NCBI GenBank assembly: GCA_963971425.1
Contig: OZ020514.1
Location: 15,877,218 to 15,941,217, forward strand
Direction: 5' to 3'
Length of the DNA: 64,000 nucleotides
Origin: Bryoerythrophyllum caledonicum
Lineage: Eukaryota > Streptophyta > Bryopsida > Pottiales > Pottiaceae
Shown here: piece by piece, positions 2,309-51,796 of the stretch
How the letters are laid out: the number at the start of each line of letters is the position of its first letter
How positions within the stretch are numbered: position 1 is the first letter of the stretch
Made by a program: the position numbers and the translations under genes
Notes under the pieces: model-generated
The model's database searches: none
What the model saw: only the letters and a program-made list of their open reading frames with translations
What the model was told of the DNA's origin: nothing

Positions 2309-2552
2309 ATGCCCGAAACCACCTCAGAAAACCCCGTCAAGTAAGATTCCATGCTCTGAATTATCTCTGTTGTGATACACAGGAACGTAGATCAATGAAT
2401 ATCATATGATATTCTCTACGCTTACTTATGTTATGCATTGCAATTCAAGGTGCAGTAGATAGAAAATTCAATGTATCTCTCCTTATTGAGAGAAAGGTTT
2501 CCAAAGCACTTCCTTTATCAGTGGATATAGCAATATCTCCTTGAGGTTTAGG

Positions 2553-3200
2553 GTTTTAGATTATAGGAATATATTCCTATCCTACTTTGCGGTGGGCTTG
2601 GATTGCTTAAGAGTTTGTGGATCGGTAGATCTTCCCAGCTATCCTTGTTAGGTCATAGGATCGGTGTTGGTTCAGAGGCTATTTGTTGATCGGAATATAT
2701 TCCTATCCCACTCTGCTCTGGACTTGGGTTGCTTGAGTGTTTGTAGATCGGTAGATCTTCCCATCTATTCATGTGGGGTCTTAGGATCGGTATTAGTTGA
2801 GAGGCTCTTTGTTGATCGGAATATATTCCTATCCCACACTGCCGTGGGCTTGGATTGCTTGAGTGTATGTGGATCGGTAGATCTTCCCATCTATCCTTGT
2901 GTGGTTATAGGACCGATAATAGGTTAGAGGCTATTTGTTCATCGGAATATATTCCTATCCCACTCTGCTGTGGGCTTGGGTTGCTTGAGAGTTTATAAAT
3001 CGGTAGATCTTCCCATCTATCCATGTGGGGCCATAGAATCGGTATTAGTTCAGAGGCTCTTTGTTGATCGGAATATATTCCTATCCCACACTACGGTGGG
3101 CTTGGGTTGCCTGAGTGTTTGTGGATCGGTAGATCTTCCTATCCCTTCGCGTGGATACTTTGCGACGTCTGGTTTAGTTTTGATCGGTAGATCCCTATCC
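2553..3200. repeat. 126-bp tandem array of palindromes filling intron 1 of gene A
   Basis: About five units with a period near 126 bases: GGAATATATTCC begins at about 2692, 2818, 2944 and 3069, with an earlier copy at 2556. Each unit holds two near-palindromes, ATAGGAATATATTCCTAT-like and GATCGGTAGATCTTCCCATC-like, separated by a conserved spacer (GGGCTTGGGTTGCTTGAG). The array lies inside an intron and stops just before the acceptor at 3241. Such dyads are typical of protein-binding sites. Confidence 0.85.
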
Positions 3201-4659
3201 CATCATGCCGTTTGATCTGATCATTCTGTTTGTATGAGCAGTGCAAACTTGATTCCGTGGTTGGAGACGAACAAGGGCTGGTGTCCTCACTGCCTCCGTG
3301 ATGAGGTGAAATGTGGTGTCAAGGCCGTTGGCCGTACATTTGAAGAACCTAAACCAAGCGCCTTGTTCATAGCAAGTTATGTCACTGAATGGGGTCTCGC
3401 TTGGGTTCGGGATGATTCGAAGCGGACAATCCAAATTGCGCCAGTTATGTTTGTAGCCGATGTCGCCGAGGGACATGAAGAAACGATAGTGCTTACAATT
3501 CAGAACGTGGAGGTGCTGGATGTGGTGGACGTGCTTGGAATTCCAGACACTGTTGTTCTTGTAATTAAGGAGTTTGTTGCAAGTGCGAAGTGTTCGAGGA
3601 TCTACGGTCTTTTTGTATCATCAAAGGATATGGTCCCCCGACTTTGTGCTTCGGTCAGAGATCATGGTTTTTCTATTGCTAGGACAGGACCTGACGTTGA
3701 TCGAATTATTGACAGTTGGGCGGAGCTCCGAGCTTGTCGTGATGCTGCCAATAGCAAGTTGGCCAAGCAGGATCCGCCTACACCTCCCAGAAAGTAGAAG
3801 AGGCCGTCACAGGCAGCTGGGGAGACTTCAGGAGCTGGGGACACGAAGAAACAACGGAAGAAGTCAGATCCCAAGATTGAAGACTTCTCATTGGCTCAGG
3901 CCGTGATGCTATCGAGCAGTTTTGTTTCGAAGTATTCGGCACAGGACCTGTAGAAAGTGAGGGCGTTGTACGAGAAAGAATTCTCGAGTCTGCATGTATT
4001 TGGTACGCGCCCATTAAAGAGACTCGACGATGCGAAGACTGACCTCGTCATCGGAATTCAATGTCTGCATAGGGCCACACCTGGGGTGGTGGTGTATCGG
4101 AAGCTCGAGAAGAAACGTGTTGGCGAGATTGTTGACCACAAGCGGACGATGCCGTTTCAAGCTTCGCTTCAGCATCTGTACGTTATGCCGATTAAGAACA
4201 AGCCTGCTGCTGACGACTTTGGTGTGGATCCCGTCGATAGTTTATTCAAGTATTTTATGACAAAGCCGACAAGACGGGACATTACAGATGATACGCACTA
4301 CGTTATCATCGGTGGGGAGCACTGCGTCGCTGCGCATAAAGTCCTTATTGCCGAGAAGTCTCTTAGTGATGATGAACTAGCCGACGCACAAAGCTTCATA
4401 ATTACCATCGTTTGGGCAGATCCAGCCAACTTTGGGAAGTTAATCTATTACTCAAGAATCCTTAACCAAGATCTGGCCGGAGTTAGGGCGGAGAGCAACT
4501 ATCTTACTCAATTGGGACTTGCACGGAAGAGCTGGGCCCAGGCGGGGTGTCCAAAGCCGTCTCCAAATGGTTTGGCACACTCGCCTCAATTCAATGTAAG
4601 TCTGAAACCATTTCTTAAATTGCATTTTCTTGTCCGCGTTGTTATGATGTTTACCACGG

Positions 4660-5085
4660 AATTGATCGGAATATATTCCTATCCCAAGGGTCCTCTAATC
4701 ACCGTAGTGGTCACAGAGATCGAAATATCTTTCTATCCGTAGTGTCCTTTGATGTCTGTTATTAATGTTGGATGTTGTTGTTCTAAGGATTTTCCCATGC
4801 ACCTTTTGACCCCGTTGCATTAGCGTATGCTCTTACTTCGTTGTCTCTAGACTTCGTGTCATTCTTATAGATCGAAAGATCTTCCTATCTTCTCTGCCTC
4901 TAGACTTCGCATCATTCTTGTAGATCGAAAGATCTTCCTATCTTCTCTGCCTCTAGACTTCGCATCATTCTTTTAGATCGAAAGATCTTCCTATCTTCTC
5001 TGCCTCTAGACTTCGCGTCATTCTTATAGATCGAAAAATCTTCCTATCTTCAGCGTCTCACTGGATGGGAAGATCTTCCTATCAT
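4660..5085. repeat. 53-bp tandem array of palindromes in intron 2 of gene A
   Basis: GATCGAAAGATCTTCCTATC recurs at 4870, 4923, 4976 and 5029 with a strict 53-base period and a shared spacer CTCTGCCTCTAGACTTCG. Outlying copies with the ATATATTCCTATCCC form lie near 4668 and with GGAAGATCTTCC near 5068. The array ends about 60 bases before the acceptor at 5148. Confidence 0.85.
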
Positions 5086-7590
5086 ACCCTCGTGCTTTCT
5101 TCGATCCGAGTCTCTGATGATGTTTTTTGTATCGATTTTTTCGTGCAGGCTTGGCTAGATAAGGTTCCCGCTTTTTTCACGAAGAATGACTTCACAAAAG
5201 ATGATGCCACTGGTCAGCCAAAGCTGCTGCTTCTCTTCGTTGATGAGCGGGTTTATCAGACGTGGCTTAGCATCCAGGAGAACTGGATTAGTGGTCTATT
5301 ACCTGATCCATACCGGGTGCAATGCACTTTTCCTGGCGGTGCGGACGGCGACTCTACCAACGAGGCCGATGATGCGGATGTTGTGGTGAGGAGGGAGAGG
5401 GCAAAGCAAAGGCGGTACCAAAGTAGGGCCTTGAGAAAGGCCGATCTTCAGCCGCTGTATGCCATGTGGGAGACCGATATTGACAGAGTTGCTAAGCTGG
5501 TCATGGAGAAGAAGTGCTCGATTAAGTCGACCAAGTCCACGAAGAAGGCTCCTGTGCTTAAGGGACTTGAATACTGGTGCAGCATCGAGAAGAAGAAGAG
5601 ACTCATCAAAAATGAGTTTATGCACTACTTTAAGTCGAAGCCGCTGAAGTCAAAGACTCAGAAGGATGTGTCTTACACAAAGACGGAGTACGGTGTTGCG
5701 GTCAATGAATTCAAGGTCTCGGAGTTTGTCGTTGAGTCTTGGTATGACAGGTTGATGAAGGATAAGGGTGGCATTAAGTTCTTTGCAAAGCGAGGGAATA
5801 ACTTGGCGCCATCCTCCAAGCCAGAAGACTTTCCAGCCGTTCTGAAGTTGCTCTTCGATTAGCAGAGGCAAGTTTCATCGCAGGAGCGTCTGCCGGAGCT
5901 GTCGACTGCCGTTGAGTCGTTTTCCGCCTTTTATAGGTGCAACACCATGGACAGGCTTACTGGGGATGTTGAGAAGTCTACCCGCTTGTCCACATTATTG
6001 GAGAAGGGATGGTTGGCGATGGATGCAAACGTGGTGTTTGTTTCTTGCTTCGTTGATCGAGATACTAGCCGTGAATCCGATTTCAACGGGATCTATGAGC
6101 GGGTCGTGAGAACTTTGCAGGCCATGGAGTACATGGATGAGCATCAATTTCGGAGGGCTCGTAATCCTGGCATGTTTCTCACCGACCGGGATGGTATGGT
6201 GGACGTTGCGAATGCTATTGCGGAGAAGGGTTCGACGGTTCACCAGATCAAACCATGGAATTTTTCATCGACATTATATATCACGGAGGGTACTGAGGGC
6301 TTCAAGAGACCTCCAACTCCTGAACTGATACTTCCTCTCTACTTCAATTTTGTCTATGGGAATGAACAGGGTTGCCAGCCTATGGCATCTTTTCGTCGAT
6401 TCTTTGGGAACGACATGCCATTCAAGTCTGTAGTATCCGCATTAGACTTCAAGAATGCGACAACGTAGTGGAATCAGCTCAGGTGGGCGAATTTCAATAT
6501 CGACGCGGTTGATGATATAATTGGGACACTTGCGGTGCCCAAGAATGTCATTGTGAACATCGGTGGAGGCCCTGCAATAACCTGGCTTGGTTTGATAAGT
6601 GGATAGGAATATATTTTGATCTCCCCGCGGTATGCTATGATGTGTGTGATTCTCGTTGATGCATTGTGCTTGTTGGCATTCCAGGTTCTCATTTGTGTCG
6701 CTCGATTTTGCTTGCAGACAAAGGGCGCGCAAGTCATCGAGGTCGTCTATTCGAAGGACAAACGTCTGGCTGCCATAAGGACGGCCACAAGTATCTGGGA
6801 CTCTCGAAAAGTGGCTGCTGTAACAGTCCCAGAACAAGAGAAACGAACTAGGAAGAAGCAGCCCAGGATGAAGGAGCCCATGATGATAGAGCCCAGGGAT
6901 AGACAACCCAGGAAGAAGGAGCGGGCCTCCAAGAGAGGGCACGATCGTAAGAATTTGGTCTCTGCCGACGAGCAAGAGGTGATTGTGGCGTCTAGGCAAA
7001 CGCACAGGGAGGAGGCAAATGAGGACGAGGAAGAAGAGCAGGAGAACGAAGATGAAGAGGAGGACATCAACCCGGAGATGCGGATGAAACGTCGGCAAGA
7101 GCCATGTGATGAAGAATTGAGCACCGAGGACGAGGGGGAGGACGAGCCGGAGGACGAGCGGGAGGACGAGCTAGAGGACGAGGGGGAGGACGAGCGGGAG
7201 GACGAGCGAGAGGACGAGCCGGAGGACGAGGAGGAGGAGGTCCAGTTCGGCAGCCTCGAAAGAGTAAGATCTTAAAGAAGAAAGTCTCGAAGGAGCCGCT
7301 ACCCCATTAGCATGACGAGTTTGTACCGTCTCAGGCTCATGTAGGAGAAGGCTCCTCTCTGCACAGTTCTCAAGTATGATGCAGCGGCTCACTCCAAACT
7401 CAATCACCAGAACAATTAATCTTCTGACGGTTCATAACAATTTTTTAGATGCTCTGTAATCTAATAGGGAATTTTTTTGGTTTACTATTGTAATTTTTTT
7501 TGTATATTATTGTAAATGTTTTTGTTGTAGAAGTTCCTCGGTTAGTCTTTGTGGATTGGAGGATCCTTCATTCCTCAGTGACTACTGGAG

Positions 7591-7610
7591 GATAGGAAGA
7601 TCTTTCGATC
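7591..7610. repeat. single palindrome downstream of gene A
   Basis: GATAGGAAGATCTTTCGATC is a near-perfect dyad of the gene A family. A related GGATAGGAATATATTTTGATC lies at about 6600-6622 in the short last intron. They show that the palindrome family continues up to the CACTA insertion site. Confidence 0.75.
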
Positions 7611-7674
7611 CACATTGGTCTTACGCTTTGCCCGTTTTTAATACAAAAATTTGAGCACCCTAATTCTATCATGT

Positions 7675-7702
7675 CACTACAAGAAAACCAGCCCAATGTG
7701 AC
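7675..7702 (+). repeat. left terminal inverted repeat of the CACTA element
   Basis: Identical over 28 bases to the reverse complement of 14081-14108. Preceded by TGT, the target duplication. Confidence 0.95.
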
Positions 7703-8380
7703 TAGGTTTTATGACTACAGTTGGGCATAAACCAAAATGTGACTAGCACTGTTTCTAGTCATTTTGACTTAGTCGCTTCGGACAATCTGATTGGGGGTCA
7801 TATTGGACACTTCTTGTTCCCAATACTGCATTCCCACAGTGTTTTGGGACCTCAAAACGGGACCTGCAGTGGGACTTGGGTCCATATGACTCTATATAGT
7901 CATATATGTATGACTACACGTAGTCATCCATATGTAAATAGTGACTGAATGAATGACTATTTCTAGTGAGGTACAAGTCAACATAATACTGGTTTTATCA
8001 CTACGCATAGTAGTGAGATGGTGACTTAATTGAGTCATTCATTGAGTGGGAGAACGTGACTCTTTGGAGTCACATCTATTTGGCAACCCCTAGTCACAAA
8101 TACTCAAATATCTTCCAAATGGTATGACTAAATGTAGTGAGGTATCAATTAATACATGATTGGTTTTATCAGTGCGCATAGTAATGAGATCTTGCATGCA
8201 TTGAGTCATACATTGAGTTTGGAGAATAGGACTCTTTGGAGTCACTTCTATTAGACTACCCATAGTCACAAATATTGAAATAGCTTCTGAATGCTATGAC
8301 GAATTGTAGTGAGATATTAGTGATCATATCAACGGTTTTATCACTACACATAGTATTGTGGTGGTGACTGTAGTCGTCAA
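7695..8380. repeat. left subterminal TGACT..AGTCA motifs of the CACTA element
   Basis: Many short motifs GTGACT, ATGACTA and AGTCAC in both orientations, often as dyads with a 4-6 base spacer (for example TGACTATATAGTCA-like at about 7888). In En/Spm the subterminal regions hold many TnpA binding motifs in both orientations; these are the obvious counterparts. Further copies occur at 8690-8815, 9590-9770, 10075-10110, 10388-10425, 11033-11075 and 13355. Confidence 0.75.
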
Positions 8381-11300
8381 ATAAACTGTAGTCGTCATCT
8401 AGGCTTTTTAGCACTTCTACAGACACTGTACCTGCAATTATGGTTTTCCCGTGTAGAGAAGCCCTAGCTACATTCTGCACTTTCCCGAATGCCACAACTT
8501 TATCCTCCTCCCCTTCTTCAAGTCCATTGAGTCTCACAGGGTTACCCTTCTTGAACTCCGGGTCCTCCCCTTCTTGTACAGCCTATATTAAAAAAAAATA
8601 CACACAATACAAGGATTAGTTGGGACTGAATTGTTGCCTTGATACAAAGATGTACTTCTCCAAGGCTCATGGCACTTATTTAAATTCTATGACTGTGAGA
8701 AGTCACGTATTCTAACGTCATTACTAATCTCAGTCACATATTCCAACTTCATGACTGTCTCTAGTCAAGCATGGTCACTCGTTCCATATGAATGACTAAA
8801 AACAGTCACAAACTTGGCATACTGAATTTGTACAGAACTCAGACACAACATTCCAAGATGTAGCTCATGGCACTTACAGCTGAGCTCATTGGTGCGTTCA
8901 CATTTTTCTTCGGTCTCACAGGGTCACCCTTCTTCAACTCGGAGTTGGAGGTTTTTTGTACAACCTATAAAAGTAAAAAAAAACACAAAACAGGGATCAG
9001 CTGGGACTGAATTGGTGCTTTCAGAAATAAAAATGTGAAAATACAAGGTTGACTACACATACATGTTCACTCCCCTGTGCGTTCATGTTTCTCTTCCTCT
9101 TCCCTTTCGCGTTCTGCTGATTCTCAATGTTGCCTTCCTTGCTCTTTTCAGCTTTCTCTTTGCTCCCTCGGACTGCCCTTTGCTTCTTTGTGTCATCGTG
9201 GTCTTTCTTCAGCTTCTCAACCTCTGTCAAACGCATTTTCTTCTGGGTGCGAGTGTCCTCCTTTGCAGGCTTAGAAGCCCTCAAATTTTGAGTTGAGTAC
9301 ACAACTGCGGCACGTCCTCCTGCCTCTGCCACAGTCACTGCACCACAATCTAGAGTGCCTCCTGCAGGGTTGTTCAAAGTTCCCGTTGTCTGTGAGTCCT
9401 TCACATCACCTACTGCAGGAATCTCCACTGCCTTATTCGGATCTGCAGGTTGCAATTCGCACTCCCCTGCTTCCTGCAATCCCTATTAAGTACAGAGGCA
9501 ACACGTCAATAGGGATCCTCTCAGTCATTGCTTTCAATCATGAGCAATGTTTGTGATTCCGTTTAACAATGCCACACCTTCTTTACCATTCTAGTCACTT
9601 ATTCAAATTCTATGACTATGAATAGTAATATATTCAAAACTGGTGACTGTGAGAAGTCACATATTCTAACTACATTACTAATATTGATCACATATTCCAG
9701 ATTCATGACTGCATCTAGTAAAGCTTGGTCACTCGTTCCATATCAATGACTACAAACAGTCACGAAATCCTAGACACATTGAATGTTGCAAGAACCAAGG
9801 CACAACACACATCAAAATGCTATTCGTACCTGTAGTGCCAGGATACTTTCCTGAACGTCATCTGCCTTTTGTGAAGTGTCGGAGCCGGTGGACTCTGAGC
9901 TGGAGCTGCGCTTTTCACTTGCTACCTTCGTGGGGGTGACAACGGGAATCTGTAGGTGCTGCATGATGCATCACGAACAGTAAGAACAACAAGGAGTCAT
10001 GTAACAAGAACTGGAAGCAGAAACCAGCATCTGTCTTACATCTTGAGCATGATACGATTTCAGTAGTCAGAATTGTTGTTTGTGTGACTACAAGCAGTCA
10101 TAGACCTCCGGAACATGACTACAGTTTCTGGGCAACCATGACGATGTGGCAATCACCCCAATGCGATTTCAACCATAATGAAGCAAACATGCTACTTAAG
10201 ATGTCTCGAAGTTCCAACAATGACTACAGTTCCAAAAAAATTAATCACGAACAGGGCTACGTTCCACAAAAATGAATCACAAACAATATGAACGAAATGG
10301 AGTTATGTAACAAGCCAAGAAGCAGAAAACAACATCAGTCAAAAAACTTGAGCTTCATACTAGTTTTGTGGTCAGAATTCTCGTTCATGTGACTAAGAGA
10401 AGTCACAGACCTTGGAAACATGACTGCACTTTCAAGTCAAGCAAACACAAAATCCATGCCATAAATTCAAACACCTACTATGAATTCAGTTTCTATATTG
10501 CATCGTTAGTGCAGTTTCAAGCAAGGAAACAAAAGATGAGCTACAGTTTCAAGAAAATGTTGCAACAATTTCAAGCTACAAAATATGAGCCACGTATCCT
10601 CTACATTAGCACTCTCTCGTGATGTTAAACTTACTCAAACTACCCCCAAATGCATCGATCACATGATATTTATCGATCTCATGCTATTTGAGATTGAGCA
10701 TTCTCTATCATAAAACACACACCAGTTCGTGATCTTCACCATTTGCGAGATGTTGAAGATTGAAAACTACCATTTTGTAACTTGCAAAATTAGAGAACTA
10801 ACAAAAATGGGCATCTCCTCAAAAGAAGAATGTAATCTCCAACACATCAGTAATGTACAGTAAAACAAGGCGTGGGGGTGGCAGCTCTGTACATGAGAGA
10901 ATGTGCATGCTAGCAGCAGGTAGCACCAGGTTCTGGGTAAACATGATGAGCGAGAAGCAGCCCTGGAACGAGGCAAGAAGCAAAGGAAACCTGCAGGGTA
11001 TAGATTTGTTTTGGCTCCATACTAGTTTTGTAGTCACAAATCTCGTTCATGTGACTATGAGCAGTCACAGAGCTTTGATAGATGACTGGAGTTGCAAGGC
11101 AAGCAAACACCGATTCAAGGTACTTTGATGGAAGCATAAATCCCAACGAATCCAGGTAGTTTGATGTTTGCAAGCGAAAATTGTGCACCCATCAACATGT
11201 TAAAAAATCCCAATACTCAGTTTGTACACTCACCTGAGATTTTTGCTTGCCTCGATGGGGCTTTTGCACTCCTACTGGCGAGACCTCATCATCGCCATTG

Positions 11301-11509
11301 CCACGCTCGTCATCATTCTCGATGTCAGTGCTCTCCGTTTTCTCCTCTTCGCTGTGCCACTCGTCGGAGCTGCTCTTCACGCTCCTCACGGTTTCCTTTG
11401 ATTCCTTGCAGAGCGCGTCTTTCTGCTTCTTCCCCCGCTTGCGTGACCTTCCAGCTTTTGGTGGTGGTTGTTTAAGTCGCGAACTCCGACGCACCAGTTC
11501 CCCACCGTC
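8256..11509 (-). CDS. TnpA-like (TNP1/En-Spm C-terminal type) gene inside the CACTA element
   Basis: Reading right to left I can place exons at about 11509-11234, 9950-9837, 9477-9066, 8953-8885 and 8586-8256, each with plausible acceptors (CTGCAG, GATTGCAG, TTTATAG, ATATAG) and donors (GTGAGT, GTACGA, GTATGT, GTAAGT). A GC-rich upstream exon may lie at 11600-11900. The product is Lys/Ser/Glu-rich and hydrophilic, with RRSSRLKQPPPKAGRSRKR near the start. The last exon contains GNPVRLNGLEEGEED then VVAFGKVQNVARASLHGKT, which resembles the C-terminal domain of plant En/Spm TNP1-like proteins. TnpA-type proteins bind subterminal motifs of their own element; here these would be the TGACT dyads. 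Exon boundaries are inferred by eye and the first exon is uncertain. Confidence 0.5.
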
Positions 11510-11921
11510 GCTGCAGTTCAAGCAATCAAGAAGTCAGAACAAATTGCGGAGGTTAGGAGGACCACAATTGCGAAGCACCTGGAATGGCTGCAGGTCGGAT
11601 GGCTGTAGGGTTTTGTACGCGATTGCGAGGGGGGAGGTACGCTAACCAATCGTCAACGGCCAGTGCATACAATGGACAGAGTTAGGGTTTAGGGTTTCGT
11701 ACCCGGGGCAGTTTTCGAGGCTGCTGGCGCCGGCGCTGCGAGTGCTCTTCGTCGCGGTCTTCCCCTCTCCTCCCCCGCTTCGGTGGTTGTCGGCTCTCTC
11801 AAAGATGCTGCCAGCAGCGGGACTCCGAGCTTGTGTAGCTTGAGGGAGTTCTTGCGCAAGTTCTCCTGCCGATTCTGAAGTTTCTGGGCTACGATTCCGC
11901 CGCCACCATCAATTCGAAAAC

Positions 11922-12698
11922 TTAACCCCTAAAGTCGAAATCGACCAGAAGGTTGTAGAGTTTTCCCATACCTTTAAAATGACACCATTCATGCTTCAAA
12001 ATTCCACATACTTTAGGAGATATTCACGGTCAAAGTTTGAAAACACTGTTAGGGCATGCTGAAATCTGCCCAAAACTGCGGTATATGCTCATTTATTCTC
12101 AAAATCTGCCCAAAATCAATTAGATCGCAGTAACTTCAAAAATTCACCAAAAATTGAGATTTTACTCTTTTTCGAATTTTGTTTTTCGTACATGTAAAAG
12201 AGGTAGTAAAGCATGATCTCACCGTTTGGATTTTCAATCCGATAATTTTGCATGCCTTTTTAATTGTTGAAAATGGGCATTTGTATTTGTATTTCAGCAT
12301 ACCTCCATGTGAAAAGTTAAGCATTTCTTTAGGTTTTATAGGTCCTATGAGGATAAAAATTATATGGACATATTCCTTACTCACATAGGAACAAGAATTT
12401 GAAGAGCCTCATGTCAAATTTCCTTTCAAAATTGGTTTTTTTGGCCCCCAAAACATTAGTTTTCCATTCTACAACAAGGTAAAAATCTTTTTTTTCAACT
12501 TTGAACATTACGATCTCACAAATGGAGAGGAATTTGAATCTAAGATTCAATATGCATGTACATGTACAAGTTAGGTACTAGATCTTACGGTTATATACTC
12601 GAAAATTTGTCAAAAGTTAAAAATTTTCACCTTGCATTGAAAGAGGGCAGTTTTGAGGGTTTTTGGCAATTTTGAGGGCTTTCGACTTTAGGGGTTAA
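11922..12698. mobile_element. 777-bp nested element with 19-bp inverted ends
   Basis: TTAACCCCTAAAGTCGAAA at 11922-11940 is repeated exactly inverted at 12680-12698. The interior is AT-rich with no convincing gene (the 69 and 82 codon frames look like chance). It sits inside the CACTA element near the 5' end of the TnpA-like gene, so it is probably a non-autonomous MITE-like insertion younger than the CACTA. No clear target duplication is visible beyond the symmetric TTAA, so the superfamily is not assigned. Confidence 0.65.
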
Positions 12699-13749
12699 TG
12701 CGAGTTTGATAGAGAGTAGCACCACTACGCTAAAACGCCTGTACGTGGATTGCTTGTACGGTTTCCTTGATCCATTATGGTTTAGAATGTGATAGATTTA
12801 TGAGTTTTGAATTAGTCCTAGGTCCTTAAGGGCTTACTTGATGTTGTTGTTTTACACGAAGGCTGCAGGTGACGGTATCCATTTCCAGAGGCAAAGGGGG
12901 ATTGCAAAGGCGGGCTTTTTGGCCAATCACAACCTGAAGGAAGCTTTTGATTAACAGAACATCATTCTCAATGAGAGGTACCCTTTAGAATAGAATTTCA
13001 GCACCAGTGCTGTAGAGAAGCTTCCTCTTGCAAGATTTGAATGTTAGCATTTGAGATTTTTGCTTCTGATGTAAATTTCTCTTTGTTGGGCACTGCAGGA
13101 AGTTGGTTGATACCTGACTTAACTGGAACCACACCTAAAGAGCTTGGAAACATGAGTGTTGTTTTCAGTCTGAACGAGGTGATCATTTATGAAACGCTTA
13201 CTCTTAGAAATTCAGTAGGACTGTGCACTAAAACACTCAATCCAATGCTTTCTGTTGACCAAGGTTAGTCATGATTTTGGTTCATGTGACGGTAAGGAGT
13301 GAGAATCCTTGAACACATAACGTGTTCAATAGTTAGCTCTTTGGTGCATGTGACTGGAGGCAGTCACCGAGCATATCAACCTGCATGGTAGATTCAAGTG
13401 TGATTCTATTTTTATTAAGCCTACAAGGCAATTTCGTGCATCTGGAAAGCAAGTGGGAAGATAGAGCAAGTAGGATGATAGAGCAAGTGGGAAGATAAAG
13501 CAAGTAGGTAGATAGAGCAAGTGGAATCATGATTTTTGGACTCTCTTGCAAATTAGTTACTAATTTTTGAAGGTGTATTTAAAAGTGTTTCTAGAATGGT
13601 GCCCTAAAATGACATCCTAGAATGTTGGCGCGCAAACATAGTAGTGTTAAACAGGGAAGTTATTATGTAAGTGGAGATTATGGACCTACTCCAATTTCAC
13701 AGCACTCACCTATTGAGCCAACGAGTAGAGGACTTCAAAATCATCTGAT
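12699..13749. other. CACTA interior without a supportable gene
   Basis: AT-rich sequence with scattered short frames. A short stutter of GCAAGTAGG(A)TAGATAGA-type units occurs at 13448-13530. The 75-codon plus-strand frame at 13041 shows no recognisable domain. Confidence 0.5.
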
Positions 13750-14075
13750 TGACATATATGACTACTACTAGTCAGGTTATTTACTACATGACTACGTGTA
13801 GTCACCCAAACCAACTCTCTTACTACAATAAGTCATACATAATCCAATTACCCTTACCATATGACTACATTACTATAACTACACATAGTAAGCACTCAAA
13901 GCATGACTCTGGGAACCGGGCAGGAGTACATATGTCCCGTTCCCGTAGCCGTTCCCACCCAGGTCCTCAAAAATATAACTACATATATGACTAGTGCATG
14001 ATTGGACCCTCTTAGGATTGATTTTAGACTAAACCAATGACTGAGGTGACTACGCAGTCATATGCGCTTAGTCAC
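13750..14075. repeat. right subterminal TGACT..AGTCA motifs of the CACTA element
   Basis: Dense copies of ATGACTACnnnTAGTCA-type dyads (13758-13800, 13858-13890, 13978-13995, 14041-14085). Their density beside the terminal repeat mirrors the left end. Confidence 0.75.
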
Positions 14076-14080
14076 ATCCA

Positions 14081-14108
14081 GTCACATTGGGCTGGTTTTC
14101 TTGTAGTG
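14081..14108 (-). repeat. right terminal inverted repeat of the CACTA element
   Basis: Ends GGTTTTCTTGTAGTG and is the exact reverse complement of the left end. Followed by TGT at 14109-14111. Confidence 0.95.
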
Positions 14109-14133
14109 TGTTCTAATTCTCTGTCCTAAATCT

Positions 14134-17670: not shown

Positions 17671-17683
17671 TAGGTTCCGTGGA

Positions 17684-33040: not shown

Positions 33041-33045
33041 TATTG

Positions 33046-33655: not shown

Positions 33656-33661
33656 CCCCGA

Positions 33662-37625: not shown

Positions 37626-37773
37626 TCACACTGAAACCTTAGAAGTTACAAAATTCTCGCGAACCTACTAACCCGGATTAACATCATGCTCCAAGTTAGC
37701 TAAACGTGAGTTAAATGACAGACAAGTAGCCACTTGTAAGGGAATTAGCCAAACATATTCTGATGAGCATTTT

Positions 37774-41300: not shown

Positions 41301-41635
41301 CCTGCATTCCAATGAGATAATTATTAGATAATCCTTCCAATAAGTATGAGTGAAAATCTTGTAGGAATGGACATCAATGCAGAAGCATAGGAAGTGGGTA
41401 ATTTAGCTCGAATGTAGGTAAGGTCTAGCGCTTGAAAAATAATGTGCATTCAACTGAATTAACATTATATAATAGGCAAATTTAGCTTGATTTGAGGTAA
41501 ATTCAGATGGTATTATATGACAAGATTACAAATTCATGTCAGCACTTTTAATGCGAATATGAAATAAGCACACCCTTGTGAATGACATACTAGCTCAACA
41601 CGACCTGAAATGTTGACTATTAAACTGTATGACAA

Positions 41636-41850
41636 TTTAGCTCGATTCGAGCTAAAGTGACGTAGAAAATGAGGTATGGCAGTTTAGCTCGAGTCGAGCT
41701 AAATTGTCGTTGGTAATAAGGTATGACAGTTTAGCATGAGTCGAGCTAAACTGTTGTTAATAATATGGTATGACAGTTTAGCTCGAGGTGAGCTAAATTG
41801 TCGTTGATAATATGGTCTGGCGCATTGGCTTGATTCGAGCTAAAATGTCC
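41636..41850. repeat. five TTTAGCTCGA-TCGAGCTAAA palindromes upstream of gene C
   Basis: Copies at about 41636, 41688, 41727, 41768 and 41823 follow a near-regular 40-50 base spacing with the linker GGTATGACAG. The best reads TTTAGCTCGAGTCGAGCTAA. They are the same family as in gene D introns, 5 to 10 kb away. Confidence 0.85.
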
Positions 41851-42420
41851 TTCCGTGATTATCAGCGTCATTTTCGGGCATAATATGGACAAACTCTTCA
41901 GCCTATGAATCTGCCTTTCTGTATACTAGAACCCAAATCTTTGCGTTAGTAACCGAGAAACTCGCAGTGACGCTTCAAAATCACAGTAGCAACTAGAACT
42001 ATAGCAATAAGCATCTCTGTCACATCCTAATTGCTTGAATACACGGAGAATGCAAGAAGTAAACTTTGTGTACCTTGTGAAGTAGACAACCGGTGCGTTG
42101 TTGCCTCGCGCAAGCGCCCTGCTCAACCGTGCGCAACCTATAAATGTTGCCCTCCTCAACCTCTCACAGTTGTACCACCTCCAAGCCTCCCACCCACCAG
42201 CCTTGTTCAACAACCAAACTGAGAAGGAAAGAAATGAAGAAACTGGGCGAGGTTCGCCGAGGTTGGTCACAGACACACGACTGCGGGCTACGATTTCAGA
42301 ATTGGTGGAAGGAAACTTTTCCACAGCCCCTTAAATAGTGAAAATTTGAAATCTCGGCGGGAAATTGAATCAACTGTTTCCCGGTCAACTAAATTAGGAA
42401 GAGTACATACCTCAATTATA
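41851..42420 (-). promoter_or_regulatory. putative 5' region of gene C
   Basis: Moderately GC-rich compared with its surroundings, with a long minus-strand frame (42324-41926) lacking recognisable domains. It could hold the promoter and a noncoding exon of gene C. Evidence is positional only. Confidence 0.3.
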
Positions 42421-42470
42421 CTCGCACATGCGACCATTTTCCGTACATTTTCAGTCTTGATTGAAGATTG

Positions 42471-42555
42471 GGGTTAGGGTTAGGGTTAGGATTTAGGGTG
42501 TAGGGTTTCAAATTTATGTTCAGGTTTAGGGTTCACGGTTTAAGGTCCTTGGGTT
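42471..42555. repeat. second interstitial telomere-like tract
   Basis: GGGGTTAGGGTTAGGGTTAGGATTTAGGG followed by more degenerate TTTAGGG and TTTAAGG words, in the same orientation as the tract at 838-918. Confidence 0.7.
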
Positions 42556-43565
42556 AGGTATTATCCTTGTGATGATATTTCATTTCAATTTACTAATACT
42601 TTGAATATTCCGGATATTGACAATTCAACTAAGGTATAACAAAATGTAGAGAAGATATTGAGATGATTAGAAATAATTTGTATTACAATCCAAATAGGAC
42701 TTATCTATAAAGTTGAAAGCTAAGACCTTAAAGAACGAGTAGCATTAAAAAAAATTAAAAATTGTATGTGCACGTGTATTTTGAGCAAAGAAGTATGTAT
42801 TCAAACATGCTTTGGACATCATTTCTTTGGGGTTTTTAAAAAGTGCATAATGTTACTATTTTGTAATCAATTTAGAATGTTCATTCTTTTGCAAGAATCC
42901 TAAGTATTCCTATGGTCTAGATTTGGAATTGAAATTAGTTACTATCCACTAAGTAGTGAAAGACTAAAAATGTGCAAAAACTAATAGTTGGATTAAAATA
43001 TCTTATTCTTGAGTTCACAATGAATTATCATGAGTTTAGGGTGTAACAATCTAGGCATGACATGAAAAATGGAGAAATTCTTGACCATACACAATTTATT
43101 TTATATTTTGACGTGAAATTAAAGACTCTGTCATTTGTAAAACATAGACAGTGGAACAATATTTTGTAGAAGGATGATAGAAGACATGAGGCATATTACT
43201 AAGTAATTTATTTTCTCATTGAATGTCTTCAATAAAAGTTATGTTAGCCAAAAGAGAAACTTCTCGATTGCCGGCACGTCGAACAACTTAAAAACCTTTT
43301 GCTATGACACACTATGGAATGTGATATTTTCAATACATAGAAGTAATATTAGAACGTTTGATATTGTGGAAAAACATGTTATTTTTCTAGTGAAAAATAA
43401 GATTATATCCCAATTCATACATTTTCACACATTGTCACATATTTTTGGTTTAGGGTACCAAGAATACTTAGACTTCATATCCAGTGAGGACTAGATTGTC
43501 ATATTTTTTTGCTTTTTCATATTACTATTGGAGATTTAGGTCTACATATTTTGAAAATCCTTTTA
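42556..43565. other. AT-rich spacer without supported genes
   Basis: The 91-codon frame at 43219-43494 has no recognised domain and an AT-rich composition identical to its surroundings. I regard it as chance. Confidence 0.45.
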
Positions 43566-43890
43566 AAATTCAAAAGATTTGTATTTCACCTTGTGAAATA
43601 CTTAACCATAAAGAGAAATACGGAGTTTAAAATGATTGTTTGAAGAAGTGGAAATACACATTGCACAGACATCAACTCATTTTTTAGCAGAAGTGTGCCC
43701 CATCACTACGTGTAATGAACTAAAAAGAGTGTGTGCACACACTTTAGCTCCAGTAGTGCTAACGTGTGCCACATCACTAGGTGCAGTGTTCTAAAAAGAA
43801 AATACGCGCAGTTTAGCTCTACTAGAGCTAAACTGTGCACCATCCCTAAATGGAGTGGATTAGATAGCAAAAATGCACTCTTTAGCTCCA
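43566..43890 (+). repeat. right copy of the 300-bp direct repeat with TTTAGCTC palindromes
   Basis: It matches 37774-38065 in the same orientation (TTTCACCTTGTGAAATAC.. then GAAGTGG..GCACA). Dyads such as GTTTAGCTCTACTAGAGCTA occur at about 43738, 43810 and 43875. Confidence 0.7.
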
Positions 43891-44030
43891 CTACACACAA
43901 GATGGCTTCTAGTGTAGTGGACACTAAATATGAACCCATACACTAATTGTAAAATTTACAATAAGTGTAGTGACAAAACTATAATACACTAAGTGTCAAC
44001 TACTACACTAAATGTCAATCCTAGTAAATA
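43891..44030. repeat. ACACTA/TAGTGT inverted-motif cluster
   Basis: Short dyads, for example TAGTGTAGTGGACACTA at about 43911 and ACACTAATTGTAAA with TTTACAATAAGTGT at about 43941. A different motif from the neighbouring TTTAGCTC family. Meaning unclear. Confidence 0.5.
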
Positions 44031-44690
44031 GTGGAACATAAAGTTTTTTACTTGTGGACAGTTAGTGTATGAAACCTTAAAAATGATATTGTGTACATCT
44101 TGAGCATCAAGTAAAGAAGGATTGAGTGCATGTAGAAAAACAAGAATTTGCAAGAAAGAGCTTGGGAATAATAGGACGTAAGTATGGAGCAAAAGGAAAA
44201 TCTCAAAAATTGGACAAACTGTCATAAAATATACTTTTAAAACATTAAAGATTCATTGAATAATAATTAAATATTCTTTAATTGTTCATAAAAGTTATAG
44301 ATATATAAATATACATTAAATATTGTATAAAAATTCATTACAAAGTCATCAGTTATTGGCTAAATATATGATTACACATTAAATATTCATTAGATAATAT
44401 TAAATAATATAAAGGGAATGCAAGAGATGGGAATGACGATAGCCGTGGATAAGACGATAAGAAATTGAGGTTGAAGATGAGACAAGAAGAATAAATGCAT
44501 GGCAACCAGTAGGCAAAAGATTCTGAGCTAACACTATTTATCAAGTAACAAATTTGTGTGCTAGAGTAGAGTTTTGATTGAGGGCTAAAACAAAATGAGC
44601 TGCAATAGGTGAACGAATGAAAGATAATATTCATGACAATGGCGGCTAAAACTAATTGCTAACTTGTTGACAAATAGTGTACTAGAAAAA

Positions 44691-45087
44691 GAGCATCTCT
44701 ACCGGGGCAGAGGGTCCGGGAGAAATGTCGGAATGAAGGAATAAACACGGTAAAGCCCATTCCGCAAGGCCGATGCCGCTGTCCCGGCCCATCGGGGTGG
44801 CGGTGACGATTCTTCTCAATAGGAAATTTACGAAAAGTACAGGGGACACCAAAATTCCCCGGGAGCATGTGTCCAATCAAGTAACGACATGTGGGAATTA
44901 AAAAAAACAATAAAAACTCACTAAAAAATTGGCGAACTATGGCGTTAGTGCCGCGTGCTGGCGTTCCCCTAGAGTGGCCAATTCGAGGACGAGTGTAGGG
45001 GAAAAGGGTAACCCCCCTCCCGTCATCTCCAACTTGGGCACCTCTTTCCCTGCCGTGGAAAATTCAACGTCAGGGTCAGAGGTGCTC
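44691..45087. mobile_element. short MITE-like element, about 400 bp
   Basis: The left end GAGCATCTCTACC and the reverse complement of the right end, GAGCACCTCTGACC, agree at nearly all positions. The interior is much more GC-rich than the surroundings. GAGCATCTC-type ends are common in plant MITEs. No clear target duplication is visible, so the superfamily is left open. Confidence 0.5.
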
Positions 45088-45134
45088 TAACTACACTATT
45101 TATACCGTTACACTAAAAGCAAAATGTAGTGAAA

Positions 45135-45440
45135 TAGAATGAAAAAATTCCCACTTAAGCTCTATTAGAGATAATGTTTGCACCATCAGTAAATGTAGGG
45201 AACTAAAAAGAAAATATACACTTTAGCTCCAATAGAGCTAAAGTGTGCACCGGCATTTTTTTCAAAATTATACTACTGGAAGATGTCGTCTTTACATATT
45301 AAAGCAAAATGAAGTGAAAAAAAAGGAAAAAATTCACACTTTAGCTCTATTAGAGCTATCGTGTGCACCATCACTAAATGTAGGGAACTAAATAGAAAAT
45401 CTGCACACTTTAGTTCCAATAGAGCTAAAGTGTGCACCGG
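45135..45440. repeat. two further CACTTTAGCTC..GAGCTAAAGTGTGCACC repeat units
   Basis: Two long similar units (about 45135-45290 and 45300-45475), each with a degenerate dyad, the phrase ACTAAATGTAGGGAACTAAA and a second good dyad (TTTAGCTCCAATAGAGCTAA), ending in GTGTGCACCGGCATTT and AAATTATACTA. A continuation of the family at 37.9 and 43.7 kb. Confidence 0.7.
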
Positions 45441-45475
45441 CATTTATTTTAAAATTATACTATTGCAAGATGTGG

Positions 45476-46019
45476 TCTTAACATACTTATTGTCTTTTTA
45501 ATTGTCATAGTAAAAAATATCAAACTCAGAAAAAACAAAAACTTGAATTCAAAGTAATAGAATCTTAAACCGTAGCTTTAAAACTCTTTTAAATGTGCTT
45601 CACCCCTCTCCAGCACCTAATAACTGGTGTAGGAGAAACTTATATATAACGATGGTAATGAATTTACTCTTTGTATAATGCAGAAATTGAAATCGAGTCA
45701 TTTCAAAGCCAGCTAATCCACTCAAAACATGAAAGAAAACGAAGATATATAATCATGTTTCCAACACTAAACACTATAATCGTTTACTTCTGTACAATCA
45801 GAGTTTGTGCATTATTGAGAATATGTCAATTTATAAATCTTAATTGAGATAATACGATTGAAATTGGAAATAATCACTTTTCTTTGCTTCCTGCTCGTTG
45901 CCCCAGAATAAACAATTTTGTAGTGTTAATGGCTCACATAAATTGTGTAGGAAATTTATAAAAAGAGAAATAATAAACGCGCATAATAACTTGAACTTAG
46001 CCTAGTGAGATTAAATTTA
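45476..46019. other. AT-rich spacer
   Basis: I see no gene, repeat or structured signal here. Confidence 0.4.
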
Positions 46020-47068
46020 CTTCTTTAATTTGGGGTATCTATAATGAAGGTGAATGAATTCTGGTGCATCCATAATGAATACCCGAGGGTATTACCTCAA
46101 TACCGCAAAGAGTATCCGGAGGGTATCGCGAGAGCACAACACGGCTACAAGGTTTCGACCCTCCACGGCTTTTGGTGCCCAAAGGAGTACCCCCACGAAG
46201 TCGTGGCAGGAGTCTCCATTCTCTCATTGATGCTGTTGTAGTTTGCATTAGGGTGTCGCTTGTGTTTGTGTTGTGAGAGGTTCCTGTTGTGAGTTGTTCC
46301 TGTTGTGAGTTGTTGTGTGCGTTAGAGTTGCCGCTTGTGTTCGTGTTGTTTTCTGTAGGGTTTGCAAAGTTTGTGTATGTTGTAGCGTTAGAGTTTAGGG
46401 TTTGTTGCGCAATTTTTCTACAGCGCTTTGCTTTTCTACGGAAAGGGTTTGTAGGAAGTGAGGATAATTGTTGTGTGAGTTTGTAAAGACGTAGAGTCAG
46501 AAACGGCTGTGCGCGGAAGACCAACGTGAACGAGGAGCAAGATGTACAACAAAGGAGTCGGATTTCTCAGTCTTAAAGGTAAGTACACACATTCATGTTT
46601 AAATGCATTGTCTTGCATTGCTTTTGATTTATGTGTAGTTTGGTGGTATTTTTGTCGTAGTGTTTTATGTGGTTGTATTTTCTGTGTGGTGGTATTTTCT
46701 GTTTGGTGGCATTTTCTGTGTCTGCAATGCTATTGATATATGTCCTTGTGTTGATGCTAGTTCGGCTTTTTAAAAAAAAAATTGGTTTCAAAGTGCTCCT
46801 TTCAATGTGCTGCTTTCGATGTGTTGAATGTTCAATGTGTTGAAACGTTCAATGTGTTGAATGTTCAATGTGCTGCTTTTTGTTTAGGTTTCCGTGTGGT
46901 TCTACTTTCTGTTTGCTTATGTGTGGTTGAATTTTTGCTGTGCATGTTGTTTTTTATTTTGTTTTGGGATAGAGTTATTGGTTGATTGATTGTGTGTGTG
47001 GGTTTGTTATTGTTCTTGCAGGACGTCTAGTTCCAACACAATATTACTGGGATTAAAGTTCATAATCA
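46020..47068 (+). promoter_or_regulatory. upstream region and noncoding first exon of gene D
   Basis: 46040-46230 contains two near-palindromic phrases, AATACCCGAGGGTATTACC and GTATCCGGAGGGTATC. A possible noncoding exon ends CAGTCTTAAAG at 46578 before the donor GTAAGT. The next exon starts at 47022 after TTCTTGCAG. The intervening intron holds a TTCAATGTGTTGAA tandem stutter (46799-46876) and a TGGTGGTATTTTCTGT stutter (46650-46725). Confidence 0.45.
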
Positions 47069-47183
47069 ATGGCTGAAAGGTAAAATTCATACTTCTCCCA
47101 AGTGCCCTAAATCCTACGCCTTGATTATCATATGACGGAAGATAAATCTGTACAAACTGTAATAAAATTAGCATTTCAGTCAA

Positions 47184-47510
47184 CACACTTTAGATCGAGT
47201 CGAGCTAAAATGTGGCCAATAGAGCACATTGTTGGCTCCACTTTAGCTTGAGTCGAGCTAATGTGTGGCCAAAGATGCATTAGACCACTACACTTTTGCT
47301 TGACTAGAGCTGAAACGTACGGGACCACTACATCTCTGTTTGCACTTTAGTTCGACTCAAGCTAAACTGTATCAAATCGGTGCGTCTTTGGTTGCGCTAA
47401 ATCCCGACCCGAGCTAAAGTGACGTTACTATCTACACTCAAACCCAACCTCTCAAAGAAAATATCCCAAAAGACATCTAAGTCAATACACTTTACCTCGA
47501 ATCGAGCTAA
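47184..47510. repeat. six palindromes in intron 1 of gene D
   Basis: CACTTTAGATCGAGTCGAGC at about 47187, then near 47227, 47288, 47343, 47397 and 47487. All are variants of CACTTTAGCTCGA-TCGAGCTAAAGTG with 40-60 base spacing. Single copies follow at about 47741, 48067 and 48381, still within intron 1. Confidence 0.85.
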
Positions 47511-49949
47511 AGTGTGAAATAAATCACCTAAAGCACAACTCAAACACCACCACTTATGGAGCTATAGACATGGCAGAAGTTTCAATCGCCGATCTCACCG
47601 AAAACACAAAGATTTCTGCTATTTCTACTTCTCGTGCAATTTCTAAATCGATACTCATTTCGGTCAGAGAGTCAATGTATGCAAATCGGATGATTGCATA
47701 TTGTAGCAAAATTGTACATCCATACTATGTACTGTAAACACACTTTAGCTCAAGTCGAGCTAAAGATAAAGCATCAACTAGAATACAACCTTGTTAACCG
47801 CTGTGTAAGCGCAGTGAAGTATCTTAACTCATGTCTACTTCTCGTTCAGCTTCCTGAATCCTGAATAAGCTTCAGTCTCGTTCCAACCACTTGAGAACCT
47901 CGAAACCTCAAGTTCGTGAGATATTAGATCGGTTCGTAAGCTTTTCCACGGTTTAAGGGAGTTGAACGACAAGTTGACGCGAGTTGATTCATAGGGTCCG
48001 ATGATGTTCTTCGAAATATTTGTATAGACGTTATCAAATTGAACTGGCAAATTATGTAATTGGTCACACTTTAGCTCGAGTTGAGGTAAAGATGAAGAAT
48101 TAGCTTGAATACAACCATCGTGTAATTGCAGTCTAGTATCTCAACTCATGTCTACTTCTTGTTCACCTCTCACAAGTGTGCATGAGCTTTAGTCCCGCTT
48201 TAACCACTTGAGAACCTCAAAGAGTGAGGTTCGTGAGTGATTGGATCGGTTCGTAAGCTTTTCCACAGTTTTGGGAGTTGAACAAGAAGTAGGCATGAAT
48301 TGAATAAAAGGGTCTAGAGTTGTTTTCCTAATGACTATATCTTGTTGTAGAGTATTATTGACATACTTTGTATTTGGATACACTTTAGCTCGAGTCAAGC
48401 TAAGGAGTAAACTCTCCAGCTGAATTGGATGATCAATTCAGAAATCTAATATTTGTGCTTGGTTTCCTATGTGTGCAGAAGTAAAAGGGACAGGATGGTG
48501 ACTCAACTGCAACACTTCTTCCAGCAAAAGCCCGTCGGCTTTGATGATGACGATGGAGACGACAACAACCACTTGGATTGTTGGAAGCTCAAAGACCCAA
48601 CAATGACACTGAAGTGGACTCTTCTGTGGGCCCCCTATACGAATAATCTAGTCTTTGGTCAGACCTTCGCTAGTGATGTTGAACCCCAGCACATCGGCTT
48701 CACGACCATGATTACTGATGTAGTTCATGAAGATAACGAGCACGTTAAGTTGTCGTGTGTGACAACCATTGAGTCCGTAGAGCCTTATATGTTTACTATT
48801 GTAGTGAACAATGTTGTATCTCCCATCTATATCCACGATTGTGTGGATTCACTTAGGATGTCCAAATTTGATGAAGTAGTGGCTCAGGTCGACCACAAAA
48901 TCTCACTAAAGAAATGGGAGATTAGTAGTGGTCAGCCGCTTAAAGCAAAGGCTGTAGCCAATAAACTCCGTGTCATTCTATCTAGTATGAATACCTTCAC
49001 GGCTCTAGAGAATGCAAAGACAATCGCGGGTAGGCGCCCAAAAGCGATTTCGATAGTTTTGGGGGCTAGGACCGGTAGCCAAGAGTTGAGTCAAGCATCG
49101 GTACCGGTTAAAACACCTAGCACAAGAACAAGTCGAAGCACCCTACGCAACACACTGTTTGTTTCCCCCGTCAAGAAGCGCTCAGCTGCCAAGAAGTCAG
49201 AGAGCTCTTATAGGAAGTAGACGAAGCTCGTATCAGAGGAGGAGTTGGCCAATTCGATGGCCTTTGCACTCTTGGAGCTCCCTCATGCGCTCAGGTACGG
49301 AGAGACAGTCGACTACACCAACGTCCAAGAGTTTTATCAGAAATTCTGGGCGGAGTGTCAGAGCTACTTCTTCCTCCGAGACAGAGAGAAGAAGTTCGAG
49401 CTCGGCATGATGAGGCTGCATAATGCACCATCGGAGTGGACGATCCGTGCATTCGAACCTCGGGGCATGGAGGAGTTGATGCATTATAACATCGAAATGC
49501 CCGACAAGACGCAAAAGCAAACTCTCTGCGTCATGCCCAAGCTCGATGTTATGCCAACAAAGGTTGAGGACCTCACCGACTGCGACTTCTATATCATCAA
49601 CGGCCAGCATAGCATTGCAGCATCAAAGACAATGATAAACGGCAACGTCCCGGATATAATAAGATAGCACTTCCGAACATGGCAGTGTTTCATTACCTAG
49701 ACGGAGGATCCGGAGAAGCTGAGGAAGATATCCGTGTACTATAATCGCGTGAATCATTTGGTCCAATTCAAGCCGACGTGGGCAATTAATATCATGGGCT
49801 ACCGAGCTTTGTGGATCCAAGCTGAGAGACCAATGCCGAAGCACTTTGCCACATGCACTCGCGGGTCTCAGAGGTTAGATCGGAGAATGGCAGTGAAGAT
49901 TGCCAATGACAAGAAGTTCGAGGTAATATTTCCAAACCAAGCTCTGGCA

Positions 49950-50076
49950 AGTTAGCTTGAGTCGAGCTAACGTGCAAGTTTGCACTGTATCTATATAGTA
50001 TTCTATATAGATTCAAATTGCTTATATTGTATACTCTCACGTTGCAAGTTAGCTCGTCTTGAGCTAACTTGCATTT
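49950..50076. repeat. two palindromes in intron 2 of gene D
   Basis: GCAAGTTAGCTTGAGTCGAG at about 49947 and GTTAGCTCGTCTTGAGCTAA at about 50048. Both have GCAAGTTAGC outer arms instead of GCACTTTAGC, so both arms changed together and the dyad symmetry is kept. Confidence 0.8.
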
Positions 50077-51527
50077 TTTGGACCCTGCTTGACTTGTTCA
50101 TATTCTACTCTAATGATAATCTGATTCGACCCCGTTTATGTTCTGTGCAGCCATTTCTTAACGCGATTTGTGAGCGCTTCGCAATGATCGACGTTGCGAA
50201 GAGCCAAGTAGTGCTCAAGAAAGCCGGAAAGGGGAAGGAACTTTCGATTACAAACGAGGTGAAGATCATTACCTCGACCGATGAGACCTTCAAGCTCTGG
50301 TCGGATGTCATCTCTTTGGCGGCGTAGGGCGACCTCATCAACATCGATTTGATTTCAACGCCCTTGGCAAAGTTTAAAGACGCGAAGTCTTGAGTCCCGG
50401 AAAAGGATGGGGTGCTGACGCGCGAGTTCTTCAAGTTTTTTGGCAACATGATCGAGGCCTATCACGCAAAAATGTGCAAGCACATTCTCAATCGATCAGG
50501 CCCATCGTGGAGACTGCCTTACCCTAAGGTGGTTGTGAAGCAGCAAAATTCTGTGCAGGAAGATTGCTACACCGCCCGGGACTGGGTCGATCGTAGGAAG
50601 AGGAAAGAGGTCGCTCGAATGGAGCTTCTAGTGATCAGGCCGGAGCAAGCGCTCTTCAACAGCGCTAGAGCGTACATTTGGGCCAACTGGCGGAAGTTCA
50701 AGAAGGACTTCAACGTCAGCATAGCTTCAAAGCGTGCCCTCTTGGATTGGAGTCCACCGGATTCGTACTACGCCAACTTGAGGCAGACGCAATTTTGCAA
50801 CTGCAAATGTGAAGATCTCTCTCCGTATGCGAAGGAGTCCTTCAGAGTCTTTCTCGATGTCCGGTCGTAGTACCTTCAACCACAGGGGGCCTTGCACTTT
50901 TGTTCGTAGAAGGCGGTGACAAATTTGCTCGGGACGTGGCCCACGGATTTGTGGCGCAACCAAGGCTGCAATGTGAAGCTCGGCATCATTGACTTCCAAA
51001 ACATCATTGGTTTCTCTGGGAAGGCAAATTCATTGTTGGAGAAGCTCTTCTTCGACGAGTTCATGATGATGTTCGCATCAAAAGGGCAGCCTCCCCTCAC
51101 CGATCTTCCAACCTGGCTCTTCATTTGTGGCAACATCAGTCCCAACTTCAAGTGACAGCGTTTGTTGAGGGCCCGTCGTTGTGCCATGTGTACGATGTGC
51201 TGTAGTCAAAGTATCTTCCCTCCGAGAATGAACGCTTGGGGGGATTTGTCCCAAAGAGCAACAAAGCTCTCGACCACATTGGCGTCTTTTTCCTCTTCAA
51301 GAAAGAGCTCACGTAGATCCCGGCCGTGAAGAAGACCTTTGCAACTCCAGAGCATGTGTTGCACACAAAGCTTCTCAAGTACAACAAGTTGGCGTACTCG
51401 ATGAACATGAACGAGCTGAGGATGGAGTTCTTCATCAAGGTCCTGGAGCTGTTCTGCAAGAGGGGGGGGCAGTTGTCCAACTGTTTGGCCGGAAAAAATT
51501 ACTAAGCGCAAGTGTGGTACTTTTTCC

Positions 51528-51778
51528 TACAGTTTAGCTCGAGTCGAGCGAAACTGAAGATCCCTTCCTGACTCGTGCATGGATTGTTCTAGAGAGGTTG
51601 TTCTTATGCTGTTTGTAGCGTAGCACTTTAGCTCGAGTCGAGCTAAAGTGTCGGCTTGGACTTAGATGCTTTGTATAGATGTTAACAATTGCGTCGTGTC
51701 CTTTGATGTTTAAATAGCTGAGTTTTTGAATCTGTATTCTTTTGAATCCACATAAGCTCGATTCAACCTAAAGTGTAA
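51528..51778. repeat. three palindromes downstream of gene D
   Basis: CAGTTTAGCTCGAGTCGAGC at about 51531, CACTTTAGCTCGAGTCGAGC at about 51621 and a decayed copy at about 51752. Confidence 0.85.
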
Positions 51779-51796
51779 CTTGTCTAATCCATTGGT

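Follow-up and report, generated by a model that had tools for sequence, protein, structure and literature searches.

Large inverted-repeat elements of a moss genome carry a DUF7869 gene, a predicted ParB-fold gene, a NIF-like gene and family-specific palindromes

A 64-kb window (C1:15877218-15941217) of the 437-Mb genome of the moss Bryoerythrophyllum caledonicum was found to hold parts of large DNA elements of approximately 19 kb, bounded by terminal inverted repeats (TIRs), in which a DUF7869 gene diverges from a ParB-like gene and a NIF-like gene comes after the latter, in the same orientation. Palindromes of approximately 18 to 22 bp, whose sequence is specific to each family of elements, are distributed over the promoter regions, the introns and the subterminal parts. 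An earlier note on this DNA had proposed that ParB-like and transposase-like genes belong to one element class, and TIR-bounded copies of both family 1 and the C/D type (family 2) indeed hold both. The NIF-like gene, which was absent from that pairing, is a new, third member of both families. Large TIR transposons are a known kind of element; those described here possibly represent a new superfamily.

The five genes of the window are, in order:

3234..7372, + strand: gene A, ParB-like, several exons, limits approximate, ParB-like exon 3954-4601; decayed by stops (open reading frames [ORFs], other copies, homology to D)
15240..16666, + strand: gene F, two NIF/CTD-phosphatase-like domains (Pfam PF03031, E = 2.6e-13 and 1.9e-8)
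17886..21420, + strand: gene B, DUF7869 transposase-like, decayed, limits approximate
38365..41300, - strand: gene C, DUF7869 transposase-like (Pfam; 150 scored genome matches)
48495..52000, + strand: gene D, ParB-like, decayed and truncated, ParB-like exon 49221-49664 (ORFs, copies, fold via the homologue P0134)

Elements with paired ends and their distribution

Ten other A-type copies were picked from the list of exact family-1 palindrome words in the genome, fetched, and compared with the window. Genes A and F form a single repeated unit in other copies, and this unit stops at position 17335 of the window. The left part of the window's A/F element lies upstream of the window, with homology extending upstream to position 8340 of locus L029; an element of the C/D family, which ends at L029 position 8339, beside the A/F element, was probably inserted in it. 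In three copies read further upstream (E19, E52 and E4), a DUF7869 gene that we call B' is found in the direction opposite to that of A, and the ends pair as inverted repeats, ATGCCACATTTAACTAAATCTAGACTTT. E19 is 18.7 kb long and E4 is 19.7 kb long. TIRs are present at both ends of these three copies and of the L034/L010 copy. Two of the four family-1 copies with both ends read are flanked by exact 4-bp duplications (CTAA and ATTC), and the other two show AAAG/TAAG, a match in three of four letters, and ACAT/ACTA, no duplication.

In family 2, a second C/D copy (L033+L029) is collinear with the window from 49282 to 37660, in coding and noncoding sequence alike. The third (L038-L040; C1:7661940-7680936) spans 18,997 bp, has 29-bp TIRs with one mismatch, and holds a D match, a C match and a NIF gene (L039; PF03031, E = 7.5e-18). 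As this NIF gene is located downstream of D, both families comprise three genes in the same order. The flanks of this copy, CTCTG and CTCTC, which are the only ones read in family 2, do not form a clean duplication. The parts of elements in the window are:

1..17335, + strand: right part of a family-1 element, with genes A and F (BLASTN against 10 other copies)
17308..17335, - strand: right TIR of the A/F element, ATGCCACATTTAACTAAATCTAGACTTT read inward (same right end in 6 of the 10 first-fetched copies)
17336..33631, + strand: fragment of a sister-family element with gene B and palindromes of type GATCGAAGGATCCTTCGATC
33604..33631, - strand: TIR of the B element (3 mismatches to the family-1 TIR)
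37607..52000, no strand assigned: family-2 element (C/D), both ends cut by other repeats (collinear copies L033+L029 and L038-L040)

The suggestion that the window's A and B belong to one element did not stand, as the comparison of copies and the positions of the TIRs ruled it out. The A/F element closes at its TIR (17308-17335), and B is part of a sister-family element, as indicated by the TIR that follows it (33604-33631) and by 75% protein identity between B and B'. The closest family-1 B' upstream of A in divergent orientation is found at C1:15811541, 69.6 kb from A, and we infer that it is the partner of the window's A.

Protein matches to these genes were sought genome-wide. The counts are lower bounds, as only the best candidates were scored: the best 150 of 1,388 for A, the best 150 of 1,041 for D and the best 150 of 3,248 for C. 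For B' there were 69 matches, of which 68 were used, two fragments of a split gene being counted once. An A match lies within 30 kb of 44 of the 68 B' genes (none is listed for 24), compared with 8% of random positions on C1, and 42 of these 44 close pairs are arranged head-to-head, the window's own A-B pair being one of the two exceptions. Similarly, a D match is listed within 30 kb of 78 of the 150 C matches and none for the other 72, with approximately 2% expected by chance; 76 of the 78 pairs are head-to-head, and in 59 the distance is 10.2 to 12.4 kb. The idea that A or D goes together with B or C was thus borne out by close, head-to-head pairs across the genome. Open frames of at least 1,000 aa with no stop in the matched part were counted for 30 of the best 150 C matches, and many of the best 150 D matches have an open frame of 502 aa. 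At C1:43978722-44055661, four D matches with equal score, identity and frame lie approximately 25 kb apart, perhaps as a result of local tandem amplification.

The three genes

B (19990-20664) and C (39016-39753, - strand) match Pfam DUF7869 (PF25273) with E values of 4.5e-37 (127.9 bits) and 2.3e-37 (128.9 bits), respectively, for a curated cut-off of 26, and B' and C2 match it likewise. B and C share 37% identity over 221 aa, in agreement with the earlier view that they are homologues. In the DUF7869 alignment A2 of 42 sequences, three Asp residues are conserved, D25 in 24 of the 25 sequences that have a residue at this position, D147 in 38 of 39 and D187 in 42 of 42, which would fit the DDE/D triad of an RNase-H-fold transposase. 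The DUF7869 protein has no match among PDB sequences, the Pfam description of the family gives no function, and a literature search on its name found no paper. A protein search with B yielded 197 homologues, of which 120 are listed. The contigs of three of seven A relatives have sizes, 877401, 534833 and 24269, that recur among those of B relatives, which indirectly suggests that both genes are on the same contigs. By inspection, the sequence P0152 is a single ORF that starts like D and continues like C.

Profile comparison shows that the A exon (3954-4601) is homologous to the D exon (49221-49664) (hhalign probability 94, E = 1.4e-7). In a structure model of P0134, a D-type relative, the N-terminal domain has a predicted ParB/sulfiredoxin fold, and ParB, Noc or KorB are the top matches in both Foldseek and VIA; the model is unreliable past residue 200, and VIA does not exclude families outside its list. 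Searches of Pfam and of PDB sequences with ParB-like profiles yielded no ParB family and no ParB chain, so that the fold call rests on one model. A first structure model of the A exon was too poor and was discarded; the fold is therefore assigned to A by homology only. The ParB-like domain is thus predicted to belong to the ParB/sulfiredoxin fold superfamily, and the proposal that A and D are ParB-like was upheld to that extent, for D through its relative. A profile search identified 32 relatives of the ParB-like exon, and a single-sequence search identified 7. Viral contigs were scanned twice, with a B/C profile and with an A profile, and contained no relative, which led us to reject a viral origin.

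The window copies carry in-frame stops. In A, the TAG at 3795 is replaced by AAG in all 10 other copies, and that at 3951 by CAG, CAA or CGG in 7 of them, with TAG in the other 3. The TAG at 5860 corresponds to CAG or CAA in nine copies (one not aligned), and that at 6466 to CAG in eight (two not aligned). Use of TAG as a sense codon is ruled out as a general explanation by these CAG, CAA, CGG and AAG codons, which occur in most copies (3 of 10 having TAG at 3951). The CAG-to-TAG changes by which the window copy decayed would be consistent with CHG methylation, as expected of a plant.

In F, the frames with a NIF match are 15187-15930 and 16106-16663. Both F and the gene downstream of D thus match the NIF/CTD small phosphatases (PF03031), whose usual catalytic motif is DxDx(T/V). 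In the NIF-like protein, by contrast, the first Asp is kept and the motif reads DLNG, which makes phosphatase activity doubtful. Judging from this motif, the protein is likely an accessory or a pseudo-phosphatase.

Family-specific palindromes and surrounding repeats

A generic scan of the 64 kb identified 29 long palindromes, some of low complexity, compared with 6 and 2 in two Markov controls. In scans for family words, up to 4 mismatches were allowed. There are 36 A/F-type sites in the window, distributed over the A/F element (28), the B element (6) and inserted repeats (2), and all of the window's sites of the C/D type are in the C/D element:

2458..7610, no strand: 20 family-1 palindromes of type GATCGAAAGATCTTTCGATC, in the introns and on the 3' side of A
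15026..17092, no strand: 8 family-1 palindromes, in the introns and on the 3' side of F
37955..51772, no strand: 26 family-2 palindromes of type TTTAGCTCGANTCGAGCTAAA

Ten element-sized Markov controls for each type contained 0 or 1 site of the A/F type and 0 of the C/D type. The copy E19 has 44 family-1 sites (0 or 1 in ten Markov controls) and no family-2 site, and the C/D element has no family-1 site, in line with the earlier observation that each locus has its own palindrome. When the 44 sites were compared with an approximate ORF list that leaves out the two NIF exons of F, a single one touched an ORF, at its edge. By position, the first NIF exon (E19 20179-20694) contains no site, and the site at E19 20815, where the stop-to-stop frame around the second NIF exon has only just begun, reads as intron. 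In the C/D intergenic region (43700-45440), there are variant palindromes, such as TTTAGCTCCAATAGAGCTAAA, with a centre unlike that of the main word, which may be a second class of sites or an older insertion.

Exact family-1 words occur 131 times in the genome, and the reversed control word 0 times. Among the 100 listed, 98 lie at most 5 kb from one of 66 family-1 A exons, and 39 of the 48 family-1 A exons on C1 have a listed exact word, a proximity that is expected if the words belong to the element. Exact family-2 words are found at 3,707 places (control, 0). The family words track A exons, in support of the palindromes being part of the element. Contig C1 (65 Mb) is rich in family 1: it has 87 of the exact words in the list of 100, which stops within C4, as well as 95 of the best 150 A matches.

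As a test of prediction, we selected two further ParB-like loci (L036 and L037), at 63% and 47% protein identity. Each has its own repeated palindrome, GGATCGTAAGATCTTACGATCC and ATCGTAGGATCCTACGAT, respectively. The scans detected 7 and 10 palindromes, of which 5 and 8 were of the family word by reading, compared with 0 to 3 and 0 to 4 palindromes in six controls each. Five families (A/F, the sister family of B, C/D, L036 and L037) thus have distinct yet symmetric words, and the differences between families are themselves symmetric. The words of A/F and B differ in their core, as had been noted, with AGATCT and GGATCC, respectively, at the centre, the rest being equal. Within family 1, no covariation beyond column make-up was detected, as the observed value is attained in 379 of 1,000 shuffles, and covariation as a proof of dyad selection is therefore unsupported there; in family 2, it is attained in 1 of 1,000 shuffles. 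The spacings show that some sites are in tandem units of approximately 47, 53 or 126 bp.

Two insertions in the window are outside this system:

7675..14108 (6.4 kb), no strand: CACTA-type element between A and F, with a 3-bp duplication, TGT
21666..33045, + strand: long terminal repeat (LTR) retrotransposon inside the B element (LTRs 99.8% identical)

The CACTA-type element, which has few long frames, is absent from 7 of the 10 copies, those whose match crosses the insertion point; another copy shows a larger gap at this point, and for the other two there is no match so far. The retrotransposon has a 1,613-aa frame and is a recent insertion. The sequence that interrupts the C/D element on its C side (33640-37600) is C-rich on the + strand and resembles a long interspersed nuclear element by eye only. 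A fragment of a hAT dimerisation domain is found at 53792-54649 (- strand; Pfam E = 6.5e-5), and a run of 200 N at 57967-58166.

A candidate self-recognition system

Taken as a whole, the reading that we favour, at about even odds, is that of a DUF7869 transposase assisted by a ParB-fold licence protein that reads the palindromes of its own family. As a DDD transposase, the DUF7869 protein would cleave at the TIRs and generate a 4-bp duplication. Its ParB-fold partner, which is probably dimeric, would recognise the numerous palindromes of its own family throughout the element and act as a family-specific licence, holding or coating the long element so that chromatin is open and the ends usable. 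Palindrome and protein would diverge together between families, making the control of each family private. The NIF-like protein, in which the catalytic motif is altered to DLNG, may be an accessory acting on transcription or chromatin.

The VANDAL elements of Arabidopsis are large and of Mutator type, and their noncoding parts contain short family-specific words that are read not by the transposase but by VANC, an anti-silencing accessory protein. The likeness concerns the words and their placement, as in both cases family-specific words fill the noncoding parts of large DNA elements, and by analogy the moss protein may, like VANC, license its element or counteract silencing. In contrast with VANDAL, the moss elements combine a DUF7869 transposase-like protein, a predicted ParB-fold accessory, palindromic words and a NIF-like gene. 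The N-terminal domain of bacterial ParB, Noc and KorB has the same predicted fold, and the many nearby palindromes recall ParB-parS. The moss gene differs in that it is in a eukaryotic-type DNA element and has introns, that each family has a different word instead of one parS, that no DNA-binding domain was identified in the ParB-like protein, and that GQH[SC] appears to take the place of the arginine box. No ParA was found among the Pfam-scanned ORFs, without a search aimed at ParA. Sola, Kolobok, Ginger and other TIR superfamilies with 4-bp duplications are alike in their TIRs and short duplications as generally described, and we neither claim nor exclude a relation to them. We know of no eukaryotic transposon with a ParB-fold gene, and a limited literature search gave nothing bearing on it.

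The palindromes might instead be sites of the DUF7869 transposase, or of its N-terminal part, and the ParB-fold protein have another role. Family-1 sites reach a high density on the B' side and close to both ends, and the DUF7869 protein diverges between families in step with the palindromes; however, the sites are not restricted to the ends, many of them being internal, within A and F introns or in intergenic sequence, and we regard this explanation as unlikely. We give slightly less credit to an enzymatic role of the ParB-fold protein, of the sulfiredoxin, serine-kinase or nuclease type, with no DNA-bound clamp. Sulfiredoxins and a free serine kinase are also among the matches to the P0134 model. 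Moreover, the CTP-binding arginine box of ParB is GERR-like, and the motif in the alignment is [NG]GQH[SC], each residue of GQH being kept in 30 of 31 sequences and followed by S, C, N or T, never by R. ParB, Noc or KorB nevertheless lead in Foldseek and VIA, and many palindromes suit a dimeric DNA binder better. Still less probable are cis-signals for host factors in transcription or silencing, or intronic structures, that were amplified with the element and are read by none of its proteins. The presence of sites in introns and promoter regions, the tandem units, which are enough alone to multiply a word, and the absence of covariation in family 1 all agree with such signals, but a reader of host origin would be expected to prefer a single common word over different symmetric words in five families. 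Finally, chance nesting of unrelated elements is true of the window's A and B, in a heavily nested region, but as a general explanation it is highly improbable and already contradicted by the pairing data, namely the 42 of 44 and 76 of 78 head-to-head pairs, the 59 of 78 C-D distances within 10.2 to 12.4 kb and the TIR-bounded units that the genes share.

A more specific form of the licence reading, which we put forward tentatively and hold to be possible rather than probable, is that a ParB-type clamp was taken over by a eukaryotic DNA transposon superfamily. It would load at parS-like palindromes, slide or spread along the 19-kb body, mark it as self, bridge its distant ends for transposition, keep chromatin open and coevolve with the palindrome, so that each family remains private.

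Because many copies look intact, with long open C and D frames, the system would be directly testable. DUF7869 gains a context and a likely role. If the ParB-fold protein does read the palindromes, these elements would represent an independent invention, beside VANC, of a family-specific self-recognition code, derived from a bacterial partition fold.

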